Assembly: GCF_000819885.1 (NCBI RefSeq) | Contig: NZ_CDBO01000021.1 | Coordinates: forward strand, 1-64,000 | DNA from: Aeromonas fluvialis | GTDB taxonomy: Bacteria > Pseudomonadota > Gammaproteobacteria > Enterobacterales > Aeromonadaceae | Reading direction: 5' to 3' | Length of the DNA: 64,000 nt | In this document: positions 1-14,731 of the stretch, in pieces | Layout: the number at the start of each line of letters is the position of its first letter | Numbering within the stretch: position 1 is the stretch's first letter | Made by a program: the position numbers and the translations under genes | The notes under the pieces: model-generated | What the model was told of the DNA's origin: nothing | The model's database searches: none | The model's input: the letters and a program-made list of their open reading frames with translations, nothing else

Positions 1-1
1 T

Positions 2-2338
2 AGACCTTCAGATCCTCAAGTTCCTGATATCCCATTAGTACCTGGTATTCCTGTTGATCCCACTGATCCTCCCGTTGGTGAGTTGTGTGATGATTTTAAT
101 GTTTACCCTGATTGGACGCGTGGTGATCATGCGACGAAGGGTGACATTATGGTGCACAACAATATTGCTTATGAGGCCGTGTATTGGACCCAATCCTTGC
201 CCGGCAGCGATGGTTCATGGGATCACCATACCAATTGTGATGGTACCCCACCTGGCGCAGCGCCGCTTTTGTCACTGCCGAATCCGTTGGATCCGGTGAG
301 ATTGGAAGTGGCTGGATGGCCCAATACTTTGGTTGTTGCCAGTCCTGGCACCTCGGCTCCTAGCACGACAGTCGTTGACACTGTAAGCAGTGGGGAGTTG
401 CACGATATTGAGAAGTTGACCGCTAGCTTTATTACTTTGCTGCAAGCCAGTGAAAAAGTATCGGCTACATCCATCATCATTAAAGGCGATGTACTTGATA
501 AAGCGATCAAAGACAAAGGACAAAGTCTAGGCACGATTGCCGTTAAAGAGGCGCTCACTAAAGCAGTAGTAGAAACGGGAATTCGAGTCGATCTGGATAA
601 AATAAACGCCTTGTCAGATGACGCCAAAGGATGGGCTAATGCGTATAACTTGGTGATCTCGACAGTGGCCTCGCAAGCTACGTTTGGTTGGTCTCTAAGT
701 ATCGGTGACTTTGCCTTTAACAAACATTCTGGTCGTCAATCTGTTTGGGATAAAGCATCTAGCTCAATGGCTGATACGTTAAGCGGGTTTGGTTTATATG
801 ATGCGAAATCCAATTACAAAGCGGATTTTCTGGTTTATACCAAGTCAGACAAAACCCAAGCATTGAATAGCGAGCAATGGCACAACGCTTTGGAACATAT
901 CAAGCAAGTGAGTGACTATGTTCAGGCTCCCGCCATGCTAGCGGATATTCCGACAGAACAAGCTACTATGTACTTTATGGGAAGCACGGCGAGTGAACGT
1001 CAGCTTCGTAAGGCCGCTTATAACAACGTGTTTGCTGTCTTGTTTAAGACCGATAGCGCCGAGTTAACCAGCAAAATTGAAGAGTATCAAAATGCCAAGG
1101 TACCGCTTTATTATGTTGGCGATGAAAATCACGATGGCCCACTCACCGTTATCGATGAGCTGAACCGCCAATTGTTAGCGGCTGAAAATGTGATGGATAA
1201 TGAGGCATTTTTGTATGAAACGCCCCAATCACAATGGGTGCCATCCACCGTTTATAAATGGGCAGATTTCCTTGATGGTTTGAATGCCATGCACAACGTG
1301 GGTGTTGCTGGCAATAAGTTCTGGCTAATTGATGAAAATGCAGATGATGAGACTAACATTAAATATGCAAAAGTCGCCATTGCTGCATTCTTGGCGCAGA
1401 GCATGCAAGAAACTATTCGTTACAATGCCTGTGATGAAAACAACTGGTCTGAAGTAAGATGGGGTGCTCCAGCTGACTATCCGATGTCTGCAAGTTGTGG
1501 TCAACTGGGTCAACGCTATGCTGACTATGGTGTCAATCCCATATCTGGCTTGGATCACGCATACTCTTGTCCACGTGATAATAAGATGGAAGTGAGTGCG
1601 CTGACCCATGCCAAGTGGTACGGCGCCCCCGCCCCGGTCTTTGCTGCGCCAGACGCGGTACTGGAAGAACGTGGATTGCTGAAGAATGGATCCGCTGGTC
1701 GCTGGACGAATGAAGGCCACTGTAACCAAGTTCCAGAGACAATCGACACCTCCAAACAAGTTTGGGAACGTGACGAATGTAAAGTTTACGTAGGCCAAAA
1801 GGCGGGTAAATTTATTTGGGACGGCAGCAGTCAAGAGAGCGTACAAGGTTGCGGCTGGTGGGGACGCGGTGTCATTCAAACGACTGGAAGACAGAATTTC
1901 GGAACCCTCAACCATTATCTGGGCAGATCTCACGTCGATCCGCAAACCATTGGTAAAACCATTGATGGAGTAAGGGTCGAAGCACCGCCTGCTAATCCTC
2001 TGTACGCAGGCTTGGATTTTTGCTCTAACCCGGGACTGATTTGTAGCTCAGAAGAGAACAAAGAAATTAAATGGATTGCAGGCCTCTTCTATTGGGTAAC
2101 ATCTGTGCAGGCTTACCCTGATGAAGGTGGGCAGTACCCAGGTTGGAACTACTTCAACGAACTCAAGAAGTATGTCAATAATGGGATGAAAGGCACTCAG
2201 TTTATTGATGATGTTTCTGGCATCGTTAATAGAGGATGTCCAAACCTGACCTGCGATACGGGAGAGGTTCATAACGTTAAAGAACGTCGTGATAATTTCT
2301 ATAAAGTATTAAGACTGTTAGGTTTGAACCCGCAATAA
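2..2338 (+). CDS. GH19-family chitinase, secreted (5' end outside window)
   Basis: The frame is open from base 2, so the start lies upstream of the window; the TTG at 83 is only an internal codon. The first visible residues are a Pro/Asp-rich linker, followed by a CBM5/12-type chitin-binding module (about residues 28-75 of the visible part; WTRGDHA, YEAVYWT). The C-terminal third is GH19-like: FLAQSMQET holds the likely catalytic Glu, and GWWGRGVIQTTGRQNF matches the conserved GRG-IQ-TGR substrate-binding block. Cys-rich loops suggest export and disulfides. Expected role: endo-hydrolysis of chitin outside the cell. The middle 400 residues are not recognised. A strong terminator follows 22 bases after the stop. 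Confidence 0.88.
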   Translation, partial: RPSDPQVPDIPLVPGIPVDPTDPPVGELCDDFNVYPDWTRGDHATKGDIMVHNNIAYEAVYWTQSLPGSDGSWDHHTNCDGTPPGAAPLLSLPNPLDPVRLEVAGWPNTLVVASPGTSAPSTTVVDTVSSGELHDIEKLTASFITLLQASEKVSATSIIIKGDVLDKAIKDKGQSLGTIAVKEALTKAVVETGIRVDLDKINALSDDAKGWANAYNLVISTVASQATFGWSLSIGDFAFNKHSGRQSVWDKASSSMADTLSGFGLYDAKSNYKADFLVYTKSDKTQALNSEQWHNALEHIKQVSDYVQAPAMLADIPTEQATMYFMGSTASERQLRKAAYNNVFAVLFKTDSAELTSKIEEYQNAKVPLYYVGDENHDGPLTVIDELNRQLLAAENVMDNEAFLYETPQSQWVPSTVYKWADFLDGLNAMHNVGVAGNKFWLIDENADDETNIKYAKVAIAAFLAQSMQETIRYNACDENNWSEVRWGAPADYPMSASCGQLGQRYADYGVNPISGLDHAYSCPRDNKMEVSALTHAKWYGAPAPVFAAPDAVLEERGLLKNGSAGRWTNEGHCNQVPETIDTSKQVWERDECKVYVGQKAGKFIWDGSSQESVQGCGWWGRGVIQTTGRQNFGTLNHYLGRSHVDPQTIGKTIDGVRVEAPPANPLYAGLDFCSNPGLICSSEENKEIKWIAGLFYWVTSVQAYPDEGGQYPGWNYFNELKKYVNNGMKGTQFIDDVSGIVNRGCPNLTCDTGEVHNVKERRDNFYKVLRLLGLNPQ

Positions 2339-2360
2339 CACTGATAGTGATAAATAAAAA

Positions 2361-2397
2361 ATCGCCAGCCATGTGATCATGGCTGGCGATTTTTTTC
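2361..2397 (+). terminator. Rho-independent terminator after the chitinase
   Basis: A perfect 13-bp stem (2361-2373 with 2378-2390) with a 4-base loop is followed by a run of T. It marks the end of the chitinase unit and the left edge of the accessory island. Confidence 0.9.
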
Positions 2398-2420
2398 GTG
2401 ATTACTGATGATGAGCCGTC

Positions 2421-2442
2421 ACCCGACATTCCTTACCTGATT
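2421..2442 (+). repeat. Degenerate copy of the ACCCGACATTCCGCACCTGA repeat
   Basis: The sequence matches the copy at 45931-45960 except for two bases in the middle. The family recurs five times in the window, always beside mobile-element debris. Members are at 2421-2442 and 2591-2610 (plus), 2838-2864 and 3241-3260 (minus), and 45931-45960 (plus). Confidence 0.55.
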
Positions 2443-2464
2443 TAGGAATATAGCTGTCTCTTGA

Positions 2465-2590
2465 TCAGATCTTGATCCCCGAAGCCATCATCGCTTTGGC
2501 GGCAATAAAACCGTCCAGTTTACTTTGCCGTGTTTGCCAGCCTCCCCAGAGTGAGCGCCAGCCTGCAATCCCTGTTCGCTTACTATCCAT
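2465..2590 (-). pseudogene. C-terminal fragment of an IS4-family (IS50-like) transposase
   Basis: The minus strand reads 41 residues to a TGA at 2467-2465, including GWRSLWGGWQTRQSKLDGF and AAKAMMASGIKI. This pattern (KRTG..GW..LW.GW..LQ.K.DGF) is typical of the extreme C-terminus of IS50-like IS4 transposases. The coding similarity stops where a copy of the GGTGCGGAATGACGG repeat begins (2591-2610), so the rest of the transposase has been removed or replaced there. Assignment is from remembered family pattern, not a search. Confidence 0.55.
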
Positions 2591-2610
2591 CCGTCATTCC
2601 GCACCTAATT
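2591..2610 (+). repeat. Copy of the CCGWCATTCCGCACCT repeat at the transposase break
   Basis: The copy abuts the 5' break of the IS4-like transposase fragment. The same core is inverted at 2838-2864 and 3241-3260. Confidence 0.6.
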
Positions 2611-2837
2611 TTTGCATTTTAAATGGTGATGAAGTTCACACAGCCAGGATTGAATTGAGAAAACCAGTGACTTCACTCATGTTGCCACGTAACAATGTTC
2701 TGTTGGGTAGCAGTTCACATCATTTCACGGGGGGCGAAAGAATGAATCTGAGCATTTTAGTTTTTATTCCAACCTCAACTGCCAACACCTCAATGTTGCA
2801 ACTTGCTGTGAACGTGTAGGCATCATCGCCGAAAAAA

Positions 2838-2864
2838 AATCCCCAATCAGGTGCGGAATGTCGG
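2838..2864 (-). repeat. Inverted copy of the ATTCCGCACCTGATTGGGGA repeat
   Basis: These 27 bases are the exact reverse complement of bases inside the copy at 45931-45960, 43 kb away, where it borders a tnpB remnant. Confidence 0.7.
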
Positions 2865-3024
2865 ATCCATTGAAATGATTGGGGAAATGATTGGGACACC
2901 CACCTTTTTCCAGCCAAAAAACCGTACCCCCACCTTTCGAAGCAAGCCTCAAAAAACAAAAAAGAGGAGTGTCCCAGATTATTCTCCCCGTTATTTCCTC
3001 AGTTTTGTGGTCCTATCAGTTTAT

Positions 3025-3184
3025 AGGCTGGCGATGCAGCGATTTGCTCGGAAGGTGGGGGATTAATTTCCTATAAATATCAAAATGAAAGACCTGCCCC
3101 CGTTTTCCTGCAGCGATTTGCTCGGGAGGTGGGGGCTTAATTTTCTGTAAATATCAAAATGAAAGACCTGACCCGTTTTCCTGA
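3025..3184 (+). repeat. Two tandem copies of a ~74-bp repeat (CAGCGATTTGCTCGG...)
   Basis: The repeat core starts at 3037 and 3111, a 74-bp period. Each unit reads CAGCGATTTGCTCGG, AGGTGGGGG, TTAATTT, AAATATCAAAATGA, GACCTG and TTTTCCTG in order. The first copy also has AGGCTGGCGATG in front. A third copy lies at 4453-4540. Confidence 0.8.
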
Positions 3185-3240
3185 CAAAAGAGAGTAATAG
3201 ATCAGAACGGCCGATCGCCGTCAAGCACTGAAAAAACCAA

Positions 3241-3260
3241 AATTAGGTGCGGAATGACGG
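3241..3260 (-). repeat. Inverted copy of the CCGTCATTCCGCACCTAATT repeat
   Basis: It matches the copy at 2591-2610 in inverted orientation, so the two bracket about 650 bases of repeat-filled DNA. It is followed directly by TTCGAAGCAAGCCTCC. Confidence 0.6.
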
Positions 3261-3345
3261 TTCGAAGCAAGCCTCCAAAAACAAAAAGGTGGGTGTCCCA
3301 GATTTTTCAAATTAAAGACGTGAGCCTGTTTTTTATTCAACCCCC

Positions 3346-4044
3346 TCAATAATCATGTAATCCTTTGCGCTGGGCTACGAGTAATTCAGAATTAAGAGTC
3401 TTAACTCTATTAATGTTTGTTTTTAATGAGGGGTCAATAAAATCAATTATAGAGTCTAAGTTGTTTATTATTTTTACTAATTTTTCATTGCTCGTTTTAT
3501 GAACGTCTTCAATATCAGACTTTTTATTCAAAGTCGACATTCCCATCCATTCTTTTTCGAAATAATCAACTATATTCGAAATGCATGTAAAGTGTGAGTC
3601 ACTTTCTTTATATCCATTAAGGATTAATTCATTATTTAGTTTTTTTATTTCAACTTTCATGGCTATCAGTTGACATGAAACTTTATTATCTAATGGAAGG
3701 TTGTTAATGGCTGCGATCAAAAATTGCTCAGTCTTGTTATCACCTGCCAACCCTTTATCCAGTAATATTTGTGCTAACGTAAAAAGCTCAGTGATTATAT
3801 CAACGACAATCTTGCCATTCATATCATGGTAAAATGTTTTGCTATGAGCTATTTTTACAAAAAAATCAAAATGTATTTTAGCTATCGTGAGTGTATGTTT
3901 TAGCTCCCTTATAGGTCTGACTCGTTCTTGATGTAAATTAAATTCTTCTAGTTTAGTATTCATGATATTTAAACCATGGTTCGCCTCTTTTATACCAGCA
4001 GAAAGTATCTTCTTTAGATTGCTTAGGGATTTTAACACTATCAA
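3346..4044 (-). CDS. Hypothetical 232-residue helical protein in the island
   Basis: I do not recognise this gene. It is AT-rich, Lys/Asn/Ile-rich and predicted largely alpha-helical, with no signal peptide or membrane segment visible. Residues near 40-60 (ELKHTLTIAKIHFDFFVKIA) and the C-terminal half (KLVKIINNLDSIIDFIDPSL) look like amphipathic helices. It lies downstream of, and on the same strand as, a small membrane-protein gene and the McrBC-like pair, in a segment bounded by direct copies of the 74-bp repeat (3025-3184 and 4453-4540). Composition differs sharply from the GC-rich backbone, which indicates horizontal acquisition. A role in defence is only a guess from location. Confidence 0.6.
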   Translation of the reverse strand: MIVLKSLSNLKKILSAGIKEANHGLNIMNTKLEEFNLHQERVRPIRELKHTLTIAKIHFDFFVKIAHSKTFYHDMNGKIVVDIITELFTLAQILLDKGLAGDNKTEQFLIAAINNLPLDNKVSCQLIAMKVEIKKLNNELILNGYKESDSHFTCISNIVDYFEKEWMGMSTLNKKSDIEDVHKTSNEKLVKIINNLDSIIDFIDPSLKTNINRVKTLNSELLVAQRKGLHDY

Positions 4045-4234
4045 ATACCACCATGTGTGTTTAAAAAATTACATATCGTTATAGCATAGGTGTTCGCTGT
4101 GATACTTAGTTACAGGGAAGTATCTTAATTTTATAAGTGGTTGTTTTTCAGCTTGTTTTGTGTAAAGCTTGGGTTGTGCAGCAATAATCAAATCTTGCGC
4201 TACTCATTAACGTAAATGACTCAAATTTTCAATT

Positions 4235-4405
4235 TCATGACTTTGGTGCAGTTAGCCACATTGTTATACCTGAAAGTACAAGAACTGGGCCTGCTATATA
4301 AGTGACGTAAACACCAACATAAGATACGGTTGCCCAAATAAGACAATAGATAGCTAGTGTGACAAAAAATGTTATTGAGGATTTGTTATGTAACCATTGT
4401 TTCAT
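4235..4405 (-). CDS. Small two-helix membrane protein (56 residues)
   Basis: An ATG at 4405-4403 opens 56 codons ending in TGA at 4237-4235. The start is preceded by AAAGGA ten bases upstream, a good ribosome site. After a short charged N-terminus (MKQWLHNKSS), residues 11-31 (ITFFVTLAIYCLIWATVSYV) and 32-52 (VYVTYIAGPVLVLSGITMW) form two hydrophobic stretches separated by a glycine turn, so a hairpin in the inner membrane is expected. No family is recognised. It sits between the McrBC-like pair and the 232-residue orphan on the same strand. Small membrane proteins are frequent effectors or immunity partners in defence loci; that is inference only. Confidence 0.6.
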   Translation of the reverse strand: MKQWLHNKSSITFFVTLAIYCLIWATVSYVGVYVTYIAGPVLVLSGITMWLTAPKS

Positions 4406-4452
4406 TTTTTATGTGTCCTTTATTTTTTTGCGTAAAATGTAAGTAATCTTTT

Positions 4453-4540
4453 AGGCTGGCGATGCAGCGATTTGCTCGGAAGGTGGGGGTCTTAATTTCC
4501 TGTAAATATCAAAATGATAGACCTGCCCCGTTTTTCCTGC
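4453..4540 (+). repeat. Third copy of the ~74-bp island repeat
   Basis: It carries the same AGGCTGGCGATG lead and CAGCGATTTGCTCGGAAGG core as 3025-3110. It ends 46 bases beyond the 3' end of the nuclease gene (4587). With 3025-3184 it brackets the orphan and the small membrane gene as direct repeats. Confidence 0.8.
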
Positions 4541-4586
4541 GACCATTTTTAAAGTAATTAGCTATTAAATCAAAGACCAACAGCTC

Positions 4587-7169
4587 CTAGAGTGGGGCCT
4601 CACAACTAGGGCACTTAATATTGATTGGTTGCATTGGCATCGTGGAGTGATAAGTCCAATGTTCGCCGTTTTTTATTAGCCTGTGATTACAGTTGTAGCA
4701 ATGATTGTAGACTATGAAAAGATCGCACTCGGTACATTGATACCACAGCTTACTCTTGTTGCTTTGAGTGTGCTCAACCTTACGTAATGCCGTAGAGCCA
4801 CACCCTATGCAGAAATTGTAATTTCTCACATCGTCGTCAGCGCCTCTATTATCAACTTCGTACTGCAAAAACATACCCATCATTCTCTGCATCTCATCGC
4901 CATGCTGGTGAGAAATTAGAGGGTTCAAACAAATCGCACCAAATTGATGGGGTTGTTCACGCGGATCCCATTCAAAAAGCTTCAATTCTCCAAGATAAGA
5001 CACCTTCCCCCATTCTTGAGGTGATACTGGCCCTTTAGCCTCTGTCACGGCTTGAGTTGTTGGGTGCAAAATAAATACTGCATTCTTACTACCCTCTGAA
5101 TAGTCCTTTCGTAACGCAAGACTTTTAACAACCTCGGTTAGCCCCCCCTGCTGGCGCATAAATCCATCTGAATAAAACTTTGCATCAAGCACCACCTTTT
5201 TTTTAGTTTGACTGCCGTCTTTTGCTTCAAAGGTCATATCCAAAACAAAGTCAGGAAGTTTGCCATTCTCTAAGAGTGGCTCATAAAATAAATTAACATT
5301 TCGCTTTGCATGCAAGTTAGTAAACTGGATTGAGGTATTGCTTGATTTATTTTCTAATATTTTAAGAAGCTTGCGCTTCCATCCTGCTTCAGGTGTGAAT
5401 CTGAATTGATATTGCAGAGCCTTGATTAACTGTAACAAACACCATCGCTCGTATAACAAGGGGATATTGACCAACCCAATTCTATCTATTGTTTCCAACG
5501 ACATAAGTATGTCTTCGTTTGTTAAGCCGACCTGCTCTTTGAGTTTCTTAAAGCCTGTATGAACACCTTGATAATTTGGATTCTGAACAAATGTCATTGA
5601 GTTGGGAAATGTACTTTTGGGTTTTATCCCTAATGCAATTAGCTGTTTGGTGAGCTCCTTGATCTGCTTTTCTTTAGGTTCAAGATGTTTACGAACATAA
5701 AATACATTCTGTTGTTGCTCATTGAAGAACTTCTTACGATTTGCTATGGAAGCTCGCTCCTTATTCTGCTCTTCTAAATCTTGGTTGGTCAGTAGCATTT
5801 TCCAATCACTCTTACCCAATGCTACAGCCATTTTCTCCATATTAAGAAACTTTTCACGTTTACGCTTAAGCCATTGCGGTTCACCAATAATCTCTATTGA
5901 GGAAATGTATTCGATAGAAAGTACGGTACCTTTACCACCAGCAACAAGGCGGTTTCTCATGTAAGCAGTCAGCTTGTAGTCGGTGTAAGCCTGAAAAAGA
6001 GTCTCATATCTACCATCAAGTTCAATGGACGAAAATTTAAAGCCAGGAAGAGGCTGCCATTCTTGAGTCTCTTCTGATTTGCACGAACAAAAATATGAAC
6101 CATATTTACTTTGATTTTCAATTCGCAGATACCAAATATACGCTAAAGAGAGGTCACCGTGGGATGGCGCACCAGAATTAATCTCAAGTAGCTCTTGCCC
6201 CAGCTCTAAATTGATATAATAAAGATTTTGCTCCAACTTGGCTTTCTTGTAGTCTCTAACAACTAAATCACGATTAACCGTCTTATAATCTTTCAAACTG
6301 GCTAGACGCTCATCGAGTTTTCTGAGGTTATTTGCCAATCGTTCGGTTTTACTCTCTGCCACCCTACAAAGCTGTGACACAATCCGATGCGTAGCAAGTA
6401 ATGCATAAAGTAGATAACTATTCTCAGCTACATTAAAATTGGACGTTGTGCCTCGGCTTGTTAGATGTTTGGGGCTACCTTTAGTAGCAATTTCCATAAA
6501 GGTGCGAGGTACTGGTTTTACAGCCATACGAGGTTTGAGAACTTGGATCCCACGCAATTCAGACTTCGGTTTCTTTAGAACATTTCGACCATAACTTAAT
6601 ATCGAATCGACTAAACTAAGTGTAGATTCACCCACACTACCCATCATACCCTGCTTAGCCTCGCCCTGAATATAGCTGCTCTCGTCTAAAACTAACTCCC
6701 ACATATCGGACTTGAAGTCGATCAGATACTTCTCGAGTTGTTCTTTCGAAGAATCCGTTAGTGTAATGTGTAAATCTAGGCGTTGCTTTCCTATCAGAAA
6801 AGAAATAAACCCAGCGGTGCGATGAGTATTTGTCACCCAAGCTTTGATCATGGCGTTCCACTCTCCAGGCTCGATCCACCACTGCTTGCCCGTTTCAGGA
6901 TGAACCACTTTTTTCAACGGAATAGTCGTGCCGTCAGCAGCAAGAATGACTGGAGGGCTTGTTCTTCTACGATCAGTATACGTAATCGCCAACTGAGAGA
7001 AACGGAGTTCATCTACTTTTGGATAGATCGTAGTACATGCTACATATCCACCAGCCGACTCTTCTTCAAGTGGCAACGTATATTGGGACTCTATTAGCTC
7101 AAGCAGTGTCGATTTATCATGCCAGCGAGTCTCAATGTACCTTACTTCAAAACCAGCAGCGATCATCAT
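4587..7169 (-). CDS. McrC-like DUF2357/PD-(D/E)XK nuclease with C-terminal zinc-ribbon tail
   Basis: This 860-residue protein is the probable nuclease of a two-gene McrBC-like module. Residues about 50-330 resemble the DUF2357 region found in long McrC-type proteins. Residues about 330-560 are helical with heptad-like stretches (KEKQIKELTKQLIALG). A PD-(D/E)XK core follows: PDFVLDMTFEAKDG near 635-650 and KKKVVLDAKFYSDGF near 655-670, giving the D...D-A-K catalytic pattern. The last 75 residues hold four CxxC motifs (CIGC, CTEC, CYNC, CPSC), expected to bind two zinc ions. Classical E. coli McrC is about 350 residues and has neither the long middle part nor this tail. The gene starts with ATG overlapping the stop of the AAA+ gene by one base (TAATG), so translation is probably coupled. 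A second ATG follows immediately. Confidence 0.8.
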   Translation of the reverse strand: MMIAAGFEVRYIETRWHDKSTLLELIESQYTLPLEEESAGGYVACTTIYPKVDELRFSQLAITYTDRRRTSPPVILAADGTTIPLKKVVHPETGKQWWIEPGEWNAMIKAWVTNTHRTAGFISFLIGKQRLDLHITLTDSSKEQLEKYLIDFKSDMWELVLDESSYIQGEAKQGMMGSVGESTLSLVDSILSYGRNVLKKPKSELRGIQVLKPRMAVKPVPRTFMEIATKGSPKHLTSRGTTSNFNVAENSYLLYALLATHRIVSQLCRVAESKTERLANNLRKLDERLASLKDYKTVNRDLVVRDYKKAKLEQNLYYINLELGQELLEINSGAPSHGDLSLAYIWYLRIENQSKYGSYFCSCKSEETQEWQPLPGFKFSSIELDGRYETLFQAYTDYKLTAYMRNRLVAGGKGTVLSIEYISSIEIIGEPQWLKRKREKFLNMEKMAVALGKSDWKMLLTNQDLEEQNKERASIANRKKFFNEQQQNVFYVRKHLEPKEKQIKELTKQLIALGIKPKSTFPNSMTFVQNPNYQGVHTGFKKLKEQVGLTNEDILMSLETIDRIGLVNIPLLYERWCLLQLIKALQYQFRFTPEAGWKRKLLKILENKSSNTSIQFTNLHAKRNVNLFYEPLLENGKLPDFVLDMTFEAKDGSQTKKKVVLDAKFYSDGFMRQQGGLTEVVKSLALRKDYSEGSKNAVFILHPTTQAVTEAKGPVSPQEWGKVSYLGELKLFEWDPREQPHQFGAICLNPLISHQHGDEMQRMMGMFLQYEVDNRGADDDVRNYNFCIGCGSTALRKVEHTQSNKSKLWYQCTECDLFIVYNHCYNCNHRLIKNGEHWTYHSTMPMQPINIKCPSCEAPL

Positions 7170-9361
7170 TATGCCCAGTAATTCACAACATCATCGTTAG
7201 CTTTGGCAGAGCTTGCTATCTCCTTGATAGCTTCAAGTGCAGAAAACTCATCTAACACCGCCAACCCCAATAACTGTTCCTCTATTTGTGTTAAGAACAC
7301 ACGCTCGATATGAGTAAGCTTGTCTGTATTGCCGATGGGCTTTGAGCCATCAAAGGTGAACTTAGGTAATACTTTGTGTAGCAAAAAGTTGTTTAGGATA
7401 AGCAAATCATCCTGATTAATGTCTCTAAACAGTGCTCGGTAGTTTAGGCCTTGCCTGATGGTACGCATGCCAAATTCTACACCTAGCGGATGAAAATGCT
7501 CCTTATTTAACGTAGTAAACAATCGGCAGAACTCATCTGCAGGCGAAAAAACAGGATAAGGTTCACGTATCCCCAACTCATCAACTGTTAAACGAACTGG
7601 CTTTGTAACATCACCTAAACCATAACTTTTGATTTCTTGTTCAATCGCATTCCAATCGGTCAGCAAAGGACTTTTAAACTTCATGATATGGGCGCGGTCT
7701 AGAATCTTTGGTGACAGGTAATGTGTCGTTTCGTCAATGTTAATCGCCCCGATAATTCTTACATTGTTTGGAATAGTAATTGTAGATGGGATGCCAATAA
7801 CACCCGCTAGCATTCTTCTTACATCACCGTGATACTTAATCAGCGAATCCTTGTCACTAAAGCCAAATGCACGTTTCATCTCAGTGTTTATGTCTTCATC
7901 CTGCATCAGTGAAACAAAATCAACGATACCATTCTTGTTGTATTTATCTTTGGCGCCACTGATGATTGAAACTACACCACGCAGCTCTGACAACACATGT
8001 GCCGCTTCATCATCTGAATACAACTGAATTTCAGGCTGCTGCTTACGCTCTTCTAACTTAGATAGAAAATCGGCAAAGTAGTACTCTACGCGAGCAAGGT
8101 TCATCTCATCTAGGCAGATGAAATAAGGTATTTCAGGATTTTGGTTTGCCTCTAGTAATGCCTCTAAGAAAGGAGTGGCAAGATATTTTTTCTCTAGAGG
8201 GTTGTAATAACCTAAAAGATCTTCAGAACTAGTCCAGTTCGGTTTAACAGGTATAATTTTAGCTACCCCGCCTACGGCTTGAGCAAAAGACGTCACTAGG
8301 CTCGTCTTACCTGAACCTGAGTCACCGGCAAGGATGACCAAGTCATTTGTTCGAATGAGGGTTAAGTAGTTATCGATAATATGGCGAGAGTAATATTGCC
8401 CTTGATCTCTTAAGTATGCCTGTAAGTAAGATGTAAGTTGCGAATAGTCAGATTCAAAGTCATCGACAAAGCTCAAACCACCAACAGCATTATCATCAGC
8501 TTGCTTCTGCCCCGACAATTCAGCATAAACATCCTCATCGATAAACTCGAACTCTTTTAGAAAGCCCGCTTTTTTCTCAATGTATTTTTTTAGTTTCTCT
8601 ATTTTTTTGCTCATTTCATCTTCGATTTTATGTTGTTTTTCCATGATTGCGTTAAGTGCTGACTGTTCTAGCTCTATATTGTATTTAACTATTTTTTGCT
8701 CAGCTTCAAGCTCTGAAAGTTTGCTCTGCAACGCTTCTCTTTTGGTTTTCAATGTGGTTAGTTTACTGTCTATATCTTCAGTCTGGACAGTTAAACTCTT
8801 CTGTAGCTCTTTATATTCAGTTTCTATCTGTTCAATTTTATAGCGAGCATTTTTTTCTGCGTCTCGCGTCTCACTTTCTAACATTGTTAGAAAATGTCGA
8901 TAAATATGGTCTGATATGAGGGTTGATAGATCAGATTGCATGACCTCGTCAGTGCTAAACTTAGGTAATTCAATAAGTAACTCGACACTGGAAGGATTGA
9001 TAGAAAGTAAAAATGGATTATCTTTAAGTTTGCGTTGTTGAGTAGATGCTAATTTTAGTTCGCATCTGATAAATGCTGAGTTTTTACCATTAAGGATAGT
9101 TTGTGCATCTTTGGGAGGTAAAAATACACCTGATTGAAGTTCCCTACTGTTTGGAAGGGGATACTCAATAGGTTCATTAGTTTGGAGCAATTTTGCTTGT
9201 TTGATACCAGACCAATTACCCTGTGTGTTGATCTCTAGCCGTCCCCAAACTTGAATTTTTTCATTTTTAATATCCCAAGCATCAAATAAGCGTAGATACA
9301 AATCTTTGTCATCAAGTCCCTTTGCATAACTTTTATCATAAGTAAGCTTCTTCTCTTCCAT
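7169..9361 (-). CDS. McrB-like AAA+ motor with long coiled coil
   Basis: This 730-residue protein is the motor half of the module. Residues 1-160 are a probable specificity domain of unknown fold. Residues about 165-290 are a long charged coiled coil (EQIETEYKELQKSL, KIEKLKKYIEKKAGF). The AAA+ domain follows: Walker A GDSGSGKTS near 344-352, Walker B and the McrB-family block FICLDEMNLARVEYYF near 411-426, and a sensor block GAINIDETTHYLSPKILDRA near 536-555. In E. coli McrB the matching position carries the guanine-specifying MNTAD; here it reads INIDE, so nucleotide preference cannot be assumed to be GTP. C-terminal to it is the helical lid. The family translocates or remodels DNA and drives the McrC nuclease. 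Ribosome site is weak (AGGT 14 bases upstream). Confidence 0.82.
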   Translation of the reverse strand: MEEKKLTYDKSYAKGLDDKDLYLRLFDAWDIKNEKIQVWGRLEINTQGNWSGIKQAKLLQTNEPIEYPLPNSRELQSGVFLPPKDAQTILNGKNSAFIRCELKLASTQQRKLKDNPFLLSINPSSVELLIELPKFSTDEVMQSDLSTLISDHIYRHFLTMLESETRDAEKNARYKIEQIETEYKELQKSLTVQTEDIDSKLTTLKTKREALQSKLSELEAEQKIVKYNIELEQSALNAIMEKQHKIEDEMSKKIEKLKKYIEKKAGFLKEFEFIDEDVYAELSGQKQADDNAVGGLSFVDDFESDYSQLTSYLQAYLRDQGQYYSRHIIDNYLTLIRTNDLVILAGDSGSGKTSLVTSFAQAVGGVAKIIPVKPNWTSSEDLLGYYNPLEKKYLATPFLEALLEANQNPEIPYFICLDEMNLARVEYYFADFLSKLEERKQQPEIQLYSDDEAAHVLSELRGVVSIISGAKDKYNKNGIVDFVSLMQDEDINTEMKRAFGFSDKDSLIKYHGDVRRMLAGVIGIPSTITIPNNVRIIGAINIDETTHYLSPKILDRAHIMKFKSPLLTDWNAIEQEIKSYGLGDVTKPVRLTVDELGIREPYPVFSPADEFCRLFTTLNKEHFHPLGVEFGMRTIRQGLNYRALFRDINQDDLLILNNFLLHKVLPKFTFDGSKPIGNTDKLTHIERVFLTQIEEQLLGLAVLDEFSALEAIKEIASSAKANDDVVNYWA

Positions 9362-9383
9362 TTTATTTATATGTACCTAAATC

Positions 9384-9412
9384 AGATAATTAGTACGCCC
9401 ACCTTTCGGAGC
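9384..9412 (-). repeat. Partial inverted island repeat in the promoter region of the AAA+ gene
   Basis: The minus strand reads TTTGCTCCGAAAGGTGGGCG then TACTAATTAT, similar to TTTGCTCGGAAGGTGGGGG then ATTAATTT of the 74-bp units. It is inverted relative to the copy at 4453-4540, so the two-gene module lies between inverted repeat ends. The TTGCTC and TAATTA parts, 16 bases apart, could serve as the promoter for the module. Confidence 0.4.
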
Positions 9413-9920
9413 AAACCACTATCAAGCTAATGACCGCCACAATGCGGGTGAGTTCAATCGAGCTGAAGCCAGAAATAGTCGGCGAGTAACGATGATGGGG
9501 TTCAAATATTTCATTTTGACTTTGGCAAAAAATCCTTACCACCCACTTTACTGACCGCAACACACCCCTCTATCTGGTTCGAGCTAAACTGTGGCGGTTG
9601 TTATTTAACCAGCGGCAGATAAGCGCCATCATCCTGCTAAACGATCGGTAATGGATACCCGCTTGTCACTCGCCGATTTTCTTCAGACAAGGCTACCGCC
9701 CCTGAGTGACAGCTCCCAGTCTGCTGCTGTTAACCTGCGAGCTAGCCACTATCGCTACCATGGTGTTCTCCCCAAAGAGGGATGGTCATTTGGCTATGTT
9801 AAAGGGGGCGTTGGCGCGTTGAAAAGTGTGTTTTGGCCGAAATTTGTTCTGGATCAACAAATTAGTCATCGGTTTTGCTTTGGGTGATCAACTCATTTGG
9901 CAGGGAATGCAAAGCCGCCC
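9413..9920. other. Gene-free stretch between the island and the trp operon
   Basis: Open frames here are short, lack ribosome sites and show no recognisable domain. Base composition rises toward backbone levels from about 9650, so the right boundary of the island is probably between 9400 and 9650. Nothing functional is visible beyond the repeat ends described separately. Confidence 0.4.
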
Positions 9921-9952
9921 TCACCCCGGCCCTCTCCCGGAGGGAGAGGGGG
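9921..9952. repeat. REP-like hairpin repeat (CCCTCTCCCGGAGGGAGAGGG)
   Basis: The core is a 9-bp palindromic stem, CCCTCTCCC paired with GGGAGAGGG around a three-base loop, preceded by CTCACCCCGG. This is a very common extragenic repeat type in GC-rich gammaproteobacteria. It lies downstream of trpA. Confidence 0.65.
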
Positions 9953-9989
9953 CAAACAGCCGGGAGCTGCAAGTGGGTGCAAGCGATAT

Positions 9990-10020
9990 AACAAGAAAGG
10001 GAGCCGGTCAGGCTCCCTTT
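9990..10020 (-). terminator. Terminator of the trp operon
   Basis: A 10-bp perfect stem (9996-10005 with 10011-10020) has a 5-base loop. Read on the minus strand it is followed by TTTCTTGTT. It lies about 60 bases after the trpA stop. Confidence 0.75.
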
Positions 10021-10078
10021 TACGTGGCTATATGAACTGGCATATCAGGGCCACAAACAACTGACCCTATACCCGACC

Positions 10079-10885
10079 TTAGCGGTTGGTTGCAGCCTTC
10101 ATCCCTTCCACAAACTCTTTCAGACGAGTGAGCATATGCTCCGGGTTGTTTTGGTGGGTCTCGATGATCTTCACCACGGCGGAGCCGGAGATGGCACCGG
10201 CGGCGCCAGCCTTGATGGCTTCACGCACCTGAGCCGGTTCGCTGATGCCAAAGCCAAGCAGGGTGGGGGGGGCGTTGAACTCGCGCAGGGTATTGATCAG
10301 CCCCTCCACCGGCATGCCGGCCTTGGTCTCGGCCCCGGTGACGCCAGCGCGGCTCACCAGATAGGTGTAACCATTGCCCAGCTCGGCTACTGCCTTGAGC
10401 GTCTCGGCATCGCCATTGGGCGGGGCGATAAAGATGCTGTCGATGCCGAACTTGTCGGCGGCCGCCTTGTAGGGGGCGCACATCTGCACCGGCACGTCGG
10501 CCACCAGCACCGAATCCACCCCCGCCTGCTGGCACTTCTCATAGAAGCCGTCGATCTGGCGCACATAGACCAGGTTGGCGTAGACCAGCAGGCCAATGGG
10601 CAGCTGCGGGTACTTGGCGCGGATGCGGCCAAGCAGCTCGAAGCAGTTGTCCGGGGTGGTGTGGCTGGCAAACGCCCGCAGGGCTGCGCCCTGAATGGTG
10701 GGGCCGTCTGCCACCGGATCGGAGAAGGGAATGCCGAGCTCGAGGGCATCGGCGCCCCCTGCGACCAGTGCATCGACGATGGCCAGCGAGAGTTCAGGAG
10801 TGGGGTCACCCAGCATCACGAACGGCACAAAGGCGCCCTGATTGGCTTCATCCAGACGGGAGAAGAGTTGTGCGTAACGGTTCAT
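10079..10885 (-). CDS. trpA: Tryptophan synthase alpha chain
   Basis: It cleaves indole-3-glycerol phosphate to indole and glyceraldehyde 3-phosphate and channels indole to the beta chain. The 268-residue length equals that of the E. coli protein. [18 protein letters not shown] carries the catalytic Glu/Asp pair (the Asp is in PFSDP), and GFGISEP with GAISGSAVV form the phosphate site of the TIM barrel. The ATG overlaps the trpB stop by four bases (ATGA), so the two subunits are translationally coupled. Last gene of the operon. Confidence 0.98.
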
Positions 10886-12090
10886 TTGCAGGTTCCTTCT
10901 TTCTCAAAGCTTTCTGTTTCCAAGATATCGGCAACGGTGAAGATATCTTTGTCGCCACGGCCGGAGAGGTTGACGATGAGCACCTGCTCTTTTTCCGGTT
11001 CATTGCGGGCCATCTTGAGGGCGTGGGCCAGCGCGTGGGAGGACTCCAGCGCCGGGATAATCCCCTCGGATTTGGCCAGCTCCTGGAAGGCGTCCAGCGC
11101 CTCCTTGTCGGTGATAGAGACATACTCGGCGCGGCCGATGGCGGCCAGGTGGGCGTGTTGCGGGCCGACGGAGGGGAAATCGAGCCCCGCCGAGACGGAG
11201 TAGGACTCCTGAATTTGGCCCTGATTGTCTTGCATCAGGTAGGAGTGCATGCCAAAGAAGACCCCCTTGCTGCCGTGACCGAGCGGCGCGCCGTGCTCGC
11301 CACTCTCGATGCCATGACCACCCGGCTCGACGCCGATCAGACGCACCGACGGCTCATCGATAAAGTCTGCAAACATGCCGATGGCATTGGAGCCGCCGCC
11401 GACACAGGCGATCACCGCATCAGGCAGCCGTTCTTCTTTCTCGAAGCACTGGGCCTTGGCCTCTTCGCCGATCATCTTCTGGAACTCCCGCACGATGGTG
11501 GGGAAGGGGTGCGGGCCGGCGGCGGTGCCGAGCAGGTAGTGGGCCGACTCGTAGTTGGCGGCCCAGTCGCGCAGCGCCTCGTTACAGGCATCTTTCAGGG
11601 TGCTGGAGCCGGAGTGCACCGGGATCACGGTGGCCCCCATCAGCTTCATGCGAAAGACGTTGGGCTTCTGGCGCTCGCAATCCTTGGCACCCATATAGAC
11701 CCGGCACTTGAGGCCGAGCAGGGCGCAGGCCAGTGCAGTGGCGACGCCATGCTGACCGGCGCCGGTCTCGGCGATGATCTCGGTTTTGCCCATCCGCTTG
11801 GCCAGCAGCGCCTGACCCAGCACCTGGTTGGTCTTGTGGGCGCCGCCGTGCAGCAGATCTTCACGTTTCAGATAGAGGCGGGTCTTGGTGCCCTTGGTCA
11901 AATTGCGGGTCAGGGTGAGCGGGGTCGGGCGACCGGCATACTCGGTCAGCAGCTCCTCAAATTCGGCGACAAAGGCCGGATCCTCCTTGGCATCGACGAA
12001 GGCTTTTTCCAGCTGGAGCAGAGCAGGGACCAGAATTTGCGGTACATACATACCGCCAAATTCACCAAAAAACGGGTTGAGCAGGGTCAT
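10882..12090 (-). CDS. trpB: Tryptophan synthase beta chain
   Basis: This PLP enzyme condenses indole with serine to give tryptophan. It has 402 residues. [15 protein letters not shown] near residue 85 holds the PLP-binding lysine, and [12 protein letters not shown] is the glycine-rich phosphate-binding loop. The ETGAGQHG motif contacts the substrate carboxylate. It lies 80 bases after trpCF and overlaps trpA by four bases. Confidence 0.98.
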
Positions 12091-12170
12091 GATTTTTTCC
12101 TTATACCTGGAGTCGAAAACGGAGCATAAATTACGAAACAGTGATTCAGTGGCGGCCTCACAGGGCGCGC

Positions 12171-13604
12171 TTACAGGTTGCGCAGGGCGGCAAACGCGGC
12201 CGCCAGCTTATGCGCATCCTTCTGGCCCGGGGCACTCTCTACCCCGGAGTTGAAGTCAAGGCCGAGGCAACCAACCTGCGCCGCCTGCAGGGCGTTGTCG
12301 GGATTGAGCCCCCCTGCCAGCATCAGTTTGCTTTTGTCGAGATGGGCCAGCAGGGCCCAGTCGAACGCCTGACCTGTGCCGCCGCTCTGGCTGCCTACTT
12401 TGGTATCGAGCAGCAGGCGATCCGCCGGATAGTCGAGGGCGGGCAGCGGCTCGCCGCTCTCTTTGCCAACAGAGACGCCGACCGCTTTCCAGATCTGGCA
12501 GCCCGCCGGCAGCAGGGGGCGCAGGGTGTCGATATAGGCGGCGTCTTCGTCCCCGTGCAGTTGCACCGCGGCGAGGCCAAGCGCATCCACCGTCTTGGCG
12601 ATGGTGGCAGGCTGGGCGTTGCGAAATACCCCCACATAGGCGAGCGGTGCACCCGCCATCACGGCACGGGCGGCAGGGATGTCCACATAGCGCGGGCTTT
12701 TGGAAACAAAGATCAGGCCGCCAAACACCGCGCCCGCCTGATGGGCGGCGGCAGCGTCGTCGGCGCGGGTCAAGCCGCACACCTTGTTCTGACCCAGTAC
12801 CAGCTTGCGCACTGCCGCTTCCAGATCTTGCTCGGCCATCAGGGATGAGCCCACCAGAAAGCCCTTGGCGTGGTGGCGCAGATCCGCCACCTGAGCGCGG
12901 TGGTTGATGCCGGATTCGCTGATCACCACCCGATCTGCAGGGATGTCGGCCGCCAGTTGTTTGGTGCGGTTGAGATCGACGCTCAAATCCCGCAGATCCC
13001 GGTTGTTGATGCCAATCACCGGCGCCCCCAGCGCGATGGCGCGGGTCAGCTCCTCTTCATTGCTTACCTCGGTGAGTACGCCGAGGCCGAGCGCCTTGGC
13101 CACCGCGAACAGGGCGCGATAGCCCTCGTCGGTGAGCACCGAGAGCATCAGCAGGATGGCATCCGCCTGATAGTGGCGGGCCAGATAGACCTGATAGGGG
13201 TCAATCATGAAATCCTTGCAGAGCACCGGCTGGCTGACGCGGCCGCGCACCCGGGGCAAAAAGGCGAAATCCCCCTGAAAGAACTGCTCGTCGGTCAGTA
13301 CCGAGATGGCGGTGGCGTATTTGCCATAGATGTCGGCGATGGCCTCCGGGCTGAAATCATTGCGGATCAAGCCCTTGGAGGGGGAGGCCTTCTTGCACTC
13401 CAGAATAAAGCGGGTTGAGCCTGCCTTTAGGGCGCCAACGAAATCCCGATCGCTGGGGGTCAGCGCGCTCTGGAAGCTCTCCAGCGGCTGGGCCAGCTTG
13501 CGGGCGGCAACCCACTCCTGTTTGGCCGCCACGATCTTGCCGAGAATGGTCTGGTTGATGGAGGCCATGTTCAGAAAAGCATGGGGGGCAATAAGGTCTG
13601 ACAT
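12171..13604 (-). CDS. trpCF: Bifunctional indole-3-glycerol-phosphate synthase / PRA isomerase
   Basis: It catalyses two consecutive steps of tryptophan synthesis, isomerisation of phosphoribosyl anthranilate and closure of the indole ring. The N-terminal half is TrpC ([29 protein letters not shown]); the C-terminal half, after about residue 270, is TrpF ([29 protein letters not shown]). The fusion is the same as in E. coli. The ATG at 13604 has AGGA eight bases upstream; a longer reading into trpD is not supported. The start lies about 98 bases after the trpD stop, a larger gap than elsewhere in the operon. Confidence 0.96.
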
Positions 13605-13702
13605 CTCGTTATCCTTGCGAAGCTGCGAACTGCCGCTCGGGAGTTCTGCATGAGTGCCCTGTGGGCGTTCTGAATGACTGCTGTGCAACGTGGTGGCTGG
13701 CA

Positions 13703-14731
13703 TCATGCCTCCTGATGGCCCGCTTCCTGATGGCTCAACGTAGCCAGCCTAGCGGCGAGCTCAGCCGTCTTGCCGCTCGCCAGCACCGCCAGCACCTCGG
13801 CCGCCGCGTTCTTGAGATCGGTCGCCTTGCCCGCCATCAGCAGCAGCGGCGCCACGTTGGCGGCGATGGCGGCGTTGTGGGCCGGGGTGCCACGCCCCTC
13901 CAGAATGGCGGCGGTGATGGCGCGGTTCTCTTCAGGCGCCCCACCCTGAATGGCGCTGACCGGATAGGTCTCGAGGCCAAAGTCAGCCGGGGTGATCATA
14001 AATTCGCGGATCTCGCCGTCACGGATCTGGGCCACCTGGGTCGGGCCGTGAATGGCAATTTCGTCCAGCCCGGCACCGTGCACCACCATACCGGTTTTCA
14101 GCCCCAGTGCCAGCAGGGTTTCTGCGATGGGGCGCACCAGCTCGGGGGCATAGACCCCCATCAGTTGATAGGTGGGGCGAGCGGGGTTGATAAGCGGCCC
14201 CAGCACGTTGAACAGGGTGCGGGTCTTGAGGGCTTGGCGCACCGGCATGGCGTGGCGCACCCCAGCGTGGTACTGGGGCGCGAACAGGAAGCAGATGCCG
14301 AGCTCATCGAGACAGCGGCGCGCCTGCGCCGGGCTCATATCGAGCTTGATGCCCATTTTGTCCAGCAGATCGCTCGAACCCGACTTGCTCGAGACCGAGC
14401 GGTTGCCGTGCTTGGCCACGTTCAGGCCGCAGGCGGCGGCGACCAGCGCCGAGGTGGTGGAGACGTTGATGGTGTTGAGGCCATCGCCACCGGTGCCGAC
14501 GATGTCGCAAAATTCGTAGTCCGGACGCGGGAAGGCGCGTGCTTCCGCCAGCAGGGCCTCGGCGGCACCAGCGATCTCCTCCGGGGTCTCCCCCTTGATC
14601 TTGAGGGCGGTCAAGAGACTTGCGAGCACGATGGGATCCGCTTCACCACGTACCACCTGGCTAAAGGCGTCACGGGCGGCGTCGCGAGTAAGAGAGTGAC
14701 CCTGATAGAGGGTGTTGAGATGTTGATGCAT
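13703..14731 (-). CDS. trpD: Anthranilate phosphoribosyltransferase
   Basis: It transfers phosphoribose from PRPP to anthranilate. It has 342 residues. DIVGTGGDGLNTIN and KHGNRSVSSKSGSSDLLD are the PRPP/Mg-binding motifs, and LFNVLGPLINPA is the hinge block. It is a free-standing protein, unlike the TrpGD fusion of E. coli. It lies 15 bases after trpG. Confidence 0.97.
   Translation of the reverse strand: MHQHLNTLYQGHSLTRDAARDAFSQVVRGEADPIVLASLLTALKIKGETPEEIAGAAEALLAEARAFPRPDYEFCDIVGTGGDGLNTINVSTTSALVAAACGLNVAKHGNRSVSSKSGSSDLLDKMGIKLDMSPAQARRCLDELGICFLFAPQYHAGVRHAMPVRQALKTRTLFNVLGPLINPARPTYQLMGVYAPELVRPIAETLLALGLKTGMVVHGAGLDEIAIHGPTQVAQIRDGEIREFMITPADFGLETYPVSAIQGGAPEENRAITAAILEGRGTPAHNAAIAANVAPLLLMAGKATDLKNAAAEVLAVLASGKTAELAARLATLSHQEAGHQEA

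Follow-up and report, generated by a model that had tools for sequence, protein, structure and literature searches.

The question raised by positions 4587..9361 of the window (the whole stretch of 64,000 nucleotides of Aeromonas fluvialis DNA that was analysed) is what kind of McrBC-like system is encoded there, and which of its parts could determine its target. A first-pass annotation had described a two-gene McrBC-like module with motor and nuclease coupled by TAATG, and this layout was found to be correct: both ORFs are intact, start with ATG and have one base in common. The two genes are:

4587..7169, minus strand: nuclease gene (CnuC-like, PDC-M26B), 860 aa; ORF, PDLC04548 at 1230 bits
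7169..9361, minus strand: motor gene (CnuB-like, PDC-M26A), 730 aa; ORF, PDLC04547 at 1064 bits

The copies from Marinomonas, E. coli, Klebsiella and Salmonella (L001, L005, L006 and L007) have a 2-nt distance from the motor stop to the ATG of the nuclease that follows, and the second ATG of the window nuclease aligns with the start of the Marinomonas nuclease. Because of this gap in four relatives and the matching second ATG, the one-base overlap may be peculiar to the window copy.

As annotated before, the pair is located in an AT-rich island; the G + C content was 35–48% across the ten 1-kb bins that make up 1-10000, versus 50–68% in the remaining bins. In an empty-site comparison, the homology of eight hand-picked congeners to the window began at approximately 9683-10077, adjoining trpA; since window base 1 is also the first base of the contig, the comparison sets the right side of the island only. 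From position 2400 to the trp genes, the sole other ORF of at least 80 aa on the strand of the pair was an AT-rich 232-aa ORF (3346-4044, minus strand), which adjoins the nuclease gene. It had no Pfam or NCBIfam family above cut-off and no PADLOC match. A 751-aa ORF at 83-2338 (plus strand) has a CBM_5_12_2 carbohydrate-binding domain at its start and looks chitinase-like by eye. The pair is flanked by dispersed repeats (2835-3292, 3035-3179, 4464-4534 and 9393-9417), which we take to be possibly REP-like elements; a 501-base stretch of these repeats gave 26 matches in the genome including itself, mostly short. In the list of ORFs for window positions 1-14000, no further defence system stood out.

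Comparison with PADLOC-DB 2023, a check that had been proposed for the pair, identified it as candidate system PDC-M26. Both proteins matched over their full length, with the scores given above, and no difference from PDC-M26 was found. The PADLOC output states no mechanism for this candidate, and no paper naming it was found in the open-licence literature. The relationship to CoCoNuT-type McrBC systems suggested by the first-pass annotation was right, and could be placed more exactly as Type I-A by the NxD motif, the insert behind Walker B, the presence of two genes and PD...DAK. The pair had also been regarded as built differently from type IV restriction systems, which is not new: the coiled coil, the zinc ribbon and the two-gene make-up have been published for Type I-A (PMC11090510).

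The motor contains the following features:

8972..9310, minus strand: N-terminal beta-rich module, motor residues 18-130; strands in a low-confidence model and cassette pattern
8552..8929, minus strand: predicted coiled coil, motor residues 145-270; heptad periodicity and AlphaFold helix
7172..8410, minus strand: AAA+ (McrB-like) domain, motor residues 318-730; AAA_5 at E 1e-7 over 342-443, hhalign to Type III-A-like CnuB
8303..8326, minus strand: Walker A, motor residues 346-353; alignment, 7 of 8 positions invariant among 7 motors
7787..8038, minus strand, approximate place: insert of ~66 residues between Walker B and NxD; spacing comparison
7733..7741, minus strand: NxD motif N541-I-D543; alignment, NxD in 9 of 9 relatives

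The coiled coil of ~125 residues annotated in front of the ATPase was recovered at ~126 residues. The longest Pro/Gly-free run in the motor is 132 residues (134-265), the heptad contrast of residues 160-265 was equalled in 2 of 2000 shuffles, and AlphaFold drew a single helix at 145-270 (pLDDT ~43–70). The beta-rich module ahead of the coiled coil had been overlooked, as had the insert between Walker B and NxD and the insert in the DUF2357 region of the nuclease. For Type I-A, an OB cold-shock-like motor N-terminus without YTH and an immunoglobulin-like nuclease N-terminus have been described (PMC11090510); by analogy, an OB/cold-shock-like fold is expected for the N-terminal module of the motor. 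A profile of this module found nothing credible in the PDB, and the motor had no Pfam match to YTH.

When aligned by hhalign, the motor profile matched a Type III-A-like CnuB at E 1.8e-25 and K-12 McrB at 7e-7. All nine relatives measured had a spacing of 123 aa between Walker B and NxD (the Klebsiella and Salmonella motors, both among the nine, are nearly identical). For comparison, five NxD motors of other kinds had 55–65 aa, and two NxxD motors had 54 aa. The spacing was scanned by pattern in 19 loci, of which 7 (6 distinct motors) gave a spacing and 12 gave none; among these 12, L014-L016 and L012 are proteins measured otherwise and the other 8 lie outside the spacing figures. Helices were drawn in the insert at low confidence by AlphaFold. 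The motor model (mean pLDDT 43) was made from an alignment of two sequences only, window and Marinomonas, and was used for secondary structure only; Foldseek gave no match to it at E <= 0.001.

The nuclease contains the following features:

6762..7169, minus strand: mostly beta N-terminal domain, nuclease residues 1-136; evidence limited to the secondary structure in a failed model
6270..6752, minus strand: helical region resembling DUF2357, first part, nuclease residues ~140-300; sub-threshold PF09823 in three relatives and hhalign
5610..6269, minus strand: putative helix-beta-helix insert, second exchangeable cassette, nuclease residues ~301-520; codon comparison and very-low-confidence model
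4965..5456, minus strand: PD-(D/E)xK domain, nuclease residues ~572-735; PDDEXK_7 at 572-668
5178..5255, minus strand: predicted catalytic PD640...D662-A-K664; unchanged in all seven nucleases aligned
4602..4811, minus strand: zinc-ribbon tail with four CxxC, nuclease residues 787-856; motifs and invariance

The assignment as a PD-(D/E)XK nuclease was borne out by a match to PF04411 (PDDEXK_7) at E 6e-6, above the cut-off of this family, and with its catalytic residues intact the centre is predicted to be active. The four C-terminal CxxC motifs of the 860-residue protein were likewise found, at 787, 812, 824 and 853, and are invariant in 7 of 7 aligned nucleases; one of the four is CPxC in the window protein. 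As to DUF2357, the window protein had no Pfam match to it; a sub-threshold match was present in 3 of 3 relatives scanned (E 0.001–0.004). A profile of seven nucleases matched a true DUF2357 protein by hhalign at E 1e-4 and a probability of 58%. The same profile gave a match to K-12 McrC only around the DAK motif (probability 4%), and to the Type III-A-like partner no credible match (probability 0.1%). An immunoglobulin-like fold is expected for the nuclease N-terminus by analogy with the Type I-A description. The AlphaFold model of the nuclease (mean pLDDT 29.5, again from the window and Marinomonas sequences only) served for secondary structure only.

The pair thus shares with Type I-A CoCoNuTs (PMC11090510) the two genes, the coiled-coil NxD motor, the insert between Walker B and NxD, intact PD-(D/E)xK residues and a putative zinc ribbon and, at low confidence in the models, the helix-beta-helix insert in the DUF2357 region and the beta-rich nuclease N-terminus. 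It differs in the cysteines, since that paper counts three CPxC, whereas the window has four CxxC with one CPxC. The description of the type further includes a DUF2357 with a coiled-coil and CSD insertion and the absence of CnuH and CnuE (PMC11090510). E. coli K-12 McrBC is similar in having a McrB-like AAA+ protein and a PD-(D/E)xK partner, but its motor has an NxxD motif with a spacing of 54 aa, its proteins are shorter (McrB 459 aa, McrC 348 aa) and its McrC has no CxxC; canonical McrBC was rejected as an assignment for the window pair, whose motor has NxD and not NxxD. Type II and Type III CoCoNuTs were also rejected: among the ORFs of window positions 1-14000 no helicase or effector gene was recognised, and the nuclease residues are intact. 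The Klebsiella plasmid LC765516 (L011, 1028-13376) contains an apparent Type III-A CoCoNuT, consisting of a helicase, an unknown protein, a coiled-coil NxD motor and a CSD+DUF2357 protein. Its motor is the one matched at E 1.8e-25, but this system differs by the helicase gene, by a CSD and DUF2357 partner without CxxC and by the lack of the insert between Walker B and NxD.

By the published description, the pair fits Type I-A CoCoNuT (PMC11090510), and appears to be an intact example of a defence system whose type was known before. Reading PDC-M26 as Type I-A CoCoNuT-like joins two catalogues. According to the first-pass annotation, placement in an already described and tested subtype of the same architecture would count against its proposal. 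The subtype is described, from sequence and with its target as a prediction (PMC11090510), and searches of the open-licence literature yielded no published test of this subtype.

The result that goes further than the classification of the pair is the replacement of two blocks, one in each protein: in the motor the beta module together with the coiled coil, and in the nuclease the insert within its DUF2357 region. Seven enterobacterial loci (L005, L006, L007, L042, L043, L044 and L047) were compared codon by codon; the plasmid copies cut by IS elements (L010, L045, L046, L060, L061 and L062) were left out. Compared to L006, the motors of L005 and L042 showed 91–93% identity over the first 90 nt and 32–47% over the next 720 alignment nt, followed by 81–100%. 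In the nucleases of L007, L043 and L044 the identity to L006 was 64–86% over approximately nt 900-1530 and 88–100% elsewhere, except for a third tract near the 5’ end (83–92%) and the 3’ end of L043, which is cut short (this nuclease is 823 aa). Naming motor and nuclease alleles in that order, the combinations were A-1 (L005, L042), B-1 (L006, L047) and B-2 (L007, L043, L044). Each block thus varied while the other remained constant, among otherwise nearly identical plasmid copies. The combination A-2 was absent among the seven loci. Among plasmid records, motor cassette A was present in 38 and B in 142, and nuclease cassette 2 in 28 of 163 at an identity of at least 90%; of the 27 records listed out of these 28, none was among the 38 with motor cassette A (compared by eye).

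Synonymous differences peaked in the swapped blocks. Between the motors of L006 and L042, columns 41-280 contained 42/61 synonymous and 160 nonsynonymous codon differences, and columns 361-739 contained 35/374 synonymous differences. Between the nucleases of L006 and L007 the synonymous differences were 49/137 in columns 321-520, 1/158 in 161-320 and 22/333 in 521-869. This peak points to replacement of DNA in the blocks rather than to point changes under selection as the only cause. When compared with L006, the nucleases of L007 and L042 also differ in a third block, at codons ~41-160, where most differences are synonymous and the counts are the same for both; this suggests a further recombination tract.

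The motor of the window itself was compared across genera. Over residues 31-135 the identity was 50% between window and Klebsiella and 27% between Klebsiella and E. coli, whereas over residues 296-730 it was 72% and 98%, respectively. The sites shared by window and Klebsiella versus those shared by Klebsiella and E. coli numbered 29:5 (31-135), 22:16 (136-270), 3:17 (1-30) and 5:130 (271-730); the Fisher tests applied treat sites as independent, though they are not. The beta module is clearly discordant with the motor backbone in these alignments. For the coiled coil (136-270) they gave no clear discordance; it differs among all three of window, Klebsiella and E. coli. Between window and Marinomonas, nonsynonymous changes cluster in the regions of the variable blocks (67/300 versus 24/430, and 42/175 versus 72/679), with flat synonymous changes in the motor (38/233 versus 63/406).

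The distribution of the blocks suggests that they are target-recognition cassettes. In HsdS of Type I RM systems, target-recognition modules are exchanged on a constant frame. The modules here are swapped alike, by way of analogy and with no homology claimed, but recognition would be split over two subunits. We see about an even chance that Type I-A recognition is indeed divided over two cassettes, one per subunit, each recombined separately in the manner of Type I RM TRDs. Change of the motor cassette, with its coiled coil, next to a fixed nuclease insert, and of the insert next to a fixed motor cassette, argues against an obligate matching between the coiled coils of motor and nuclease.

The pair has spread horizontally. 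The presence of the pair in the genus was mapped, as had been proposed, and it was found in 1 of 37 genomes, that of the window itself. The closest relative found was in Marinomonas fungiae, with 87.5% (motor) and 86.7% (nuclease) identity. Matches to the nuclease were present in 234 of 72,556 plasmid records (185 from Klebsiella) and to the motor in 337 (215 from Klebsiella). None of 50,697 phage records matched the nuclease, and four scans of viral contigs gave no relative of the pair. In a genome scan 3 of 369 genomes matched, G399 only partially (217 residues, E 1e-6). The motor profile matched 14 of 398 genomes, over most of its length only the genome of the window, G260 and G780; seven of these 14 were checked for the nuclease, which was present in two.

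Neighbouring genes were seen for 11 relative loci (L001, L005-L009, L042-L044, L047 and G780, with G260 outside the count), based on the annotation of the records, on lists of ORFs and on a small number of family scans. Other defence genes were found near the pair in five of them. In E. coli (L005) these were BREX-type genes, with brxC annotated beside like genes in L045, and in L042 Zorya. In Pseudoalteromonas (L008) a Type I RM operon stops 2 nt upstream of the motor, in Marinomonas the pair adjoins genes for a tyrosine integrase and a DdmE homologue (L001, 1271-3130), and in G780 (L041, 2370-7346) a second NxD McrBC pair lies ~6 kb from the PDC-M26 pair. This second McrBC pair adjoins ORFs which, judged by eye, resemble helicases and methylases. 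In the other six loci no further defence system was recognised among the neighbours seen.

On the evidence above, the pair probably acts against phages as an NTP-driven nuclease of two subunits, of the Type I-A CoCoNuT kind. In favour of this are the PDC-M26A and B matches, the NxD motif with its 123-aa spacing in all nine relatives, the hhalign results, the invariant PD...DAK and cysteines, the defence genes near 5 of the 11 loci and the replacement of the blocks. The poor AlphaFold models, the lack of a Foldseek match, the N-terminal module's lack of a credible PDB match, the weak likeness to McrC and the single CPxC instead of three argue against it, as do the absence of the combination A-2 and the lack of recognised defence systems beside the other six loci and in window positions 1-14000. 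The motor would probably assemble as a ring from which its N-terminal beta module and coiled coil extend to bind the target; this is most likely single-stranded nucleic acid, either by itself or within a complex. The nuclease would dock on the motor by its DUF2357 part and stimulate NTP hydrolysis, its helix-beta-helix insert and zinc tail may act as a second grip, and the PD-(D/E)xK centre would then cut, most likely DNA. The exchangeable blocks would set the target range.

Under canonical type IV restriction, as by E. coli McrBC, modified bases in dsDNA would be read by the N-terminal module, with the motor responsible for translocation and the nuclease for cutting. This would fit the McrB and PD-(D/E)xK relationship of the pair and the reading of methylcytosine by the N-terminal domain of E. 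coli McrB (PMC11090510). We consider this unlikely, given a motor with NxD rather than NxxD, the additional coiled coil, insert and zinc tail, and the lack of a match to any known modified-base domain in Pfam and the PDB profile search. An RNA-directed or abortive system appears equally improbable; the pair would then sense RNA derived from translation or transcripts, and nuclease or motor would act on host or phage RNA so that growth stops. Targeting of RNA has been predicted for CoCoNuTs as a class (PMC11090510), but the catalytic PD...DAK of the pair is intact, unlike in types with HEPN RNases, and no RNase gene was recognised among the adjoining ORFs.

A further reading concerns only the variable blocks, which could be structurally slack regions, replaced by recombination with no change of target. 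Coiled coils tolerate change and drift rapidly, and some of the variation could therefore be slack; the nonsynonymous excess between window and Marinomonas with flat synonymous change in the motor would also follow from relaxed constraint. Slackness does not readily account for the conflict between the beta module and the motor backbone (29:5 versus 5:130 sites), or for a swap that includes both this module and the coiled coil but keeps the first 90 nt at 91–93% DNA identity. We hold this explanation to be rather doubtful, and regard the blocks as candidate recognition cassettes. The natural alleles A-1, B-1 and B-2 differ mainly in one cassette, which makes the question of recognition open to direct experiment in the same frame.

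The main text of PMC11090510 has no mention of recombination, swap, exchange, shuffling, plasmid or Klebsiella. In a search of the open-licence literature for McrB specificity-domain recombination, cassette exchange in CoCoNuTs was not found in the titles and abstract starts among the matches listed. A Type II CoCoNuT was reported to give resistance to at least one phage in P. aeruginosa PAO1 (PMC12735699). For the PADLOC candidates PDC-M63 and PDC-S04, tests reported in PMC12409345 gave no evidence of defence, an outcome that calls for caution with other candidates of the PADLOC list.

Two minor observations were made in the relative loci. A plasmid-borne FtsZ homologue (L008, 14501-15595) lies less than 10 kb from the Pseudoalteromonas pair. 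Several records of Klebsiella plasmids, among them L006 (10211-12787), name the nuclease ‘EstP’ or ‘Pyrethroid hydrolase’, which looks like a wrong name propagated by annotation.
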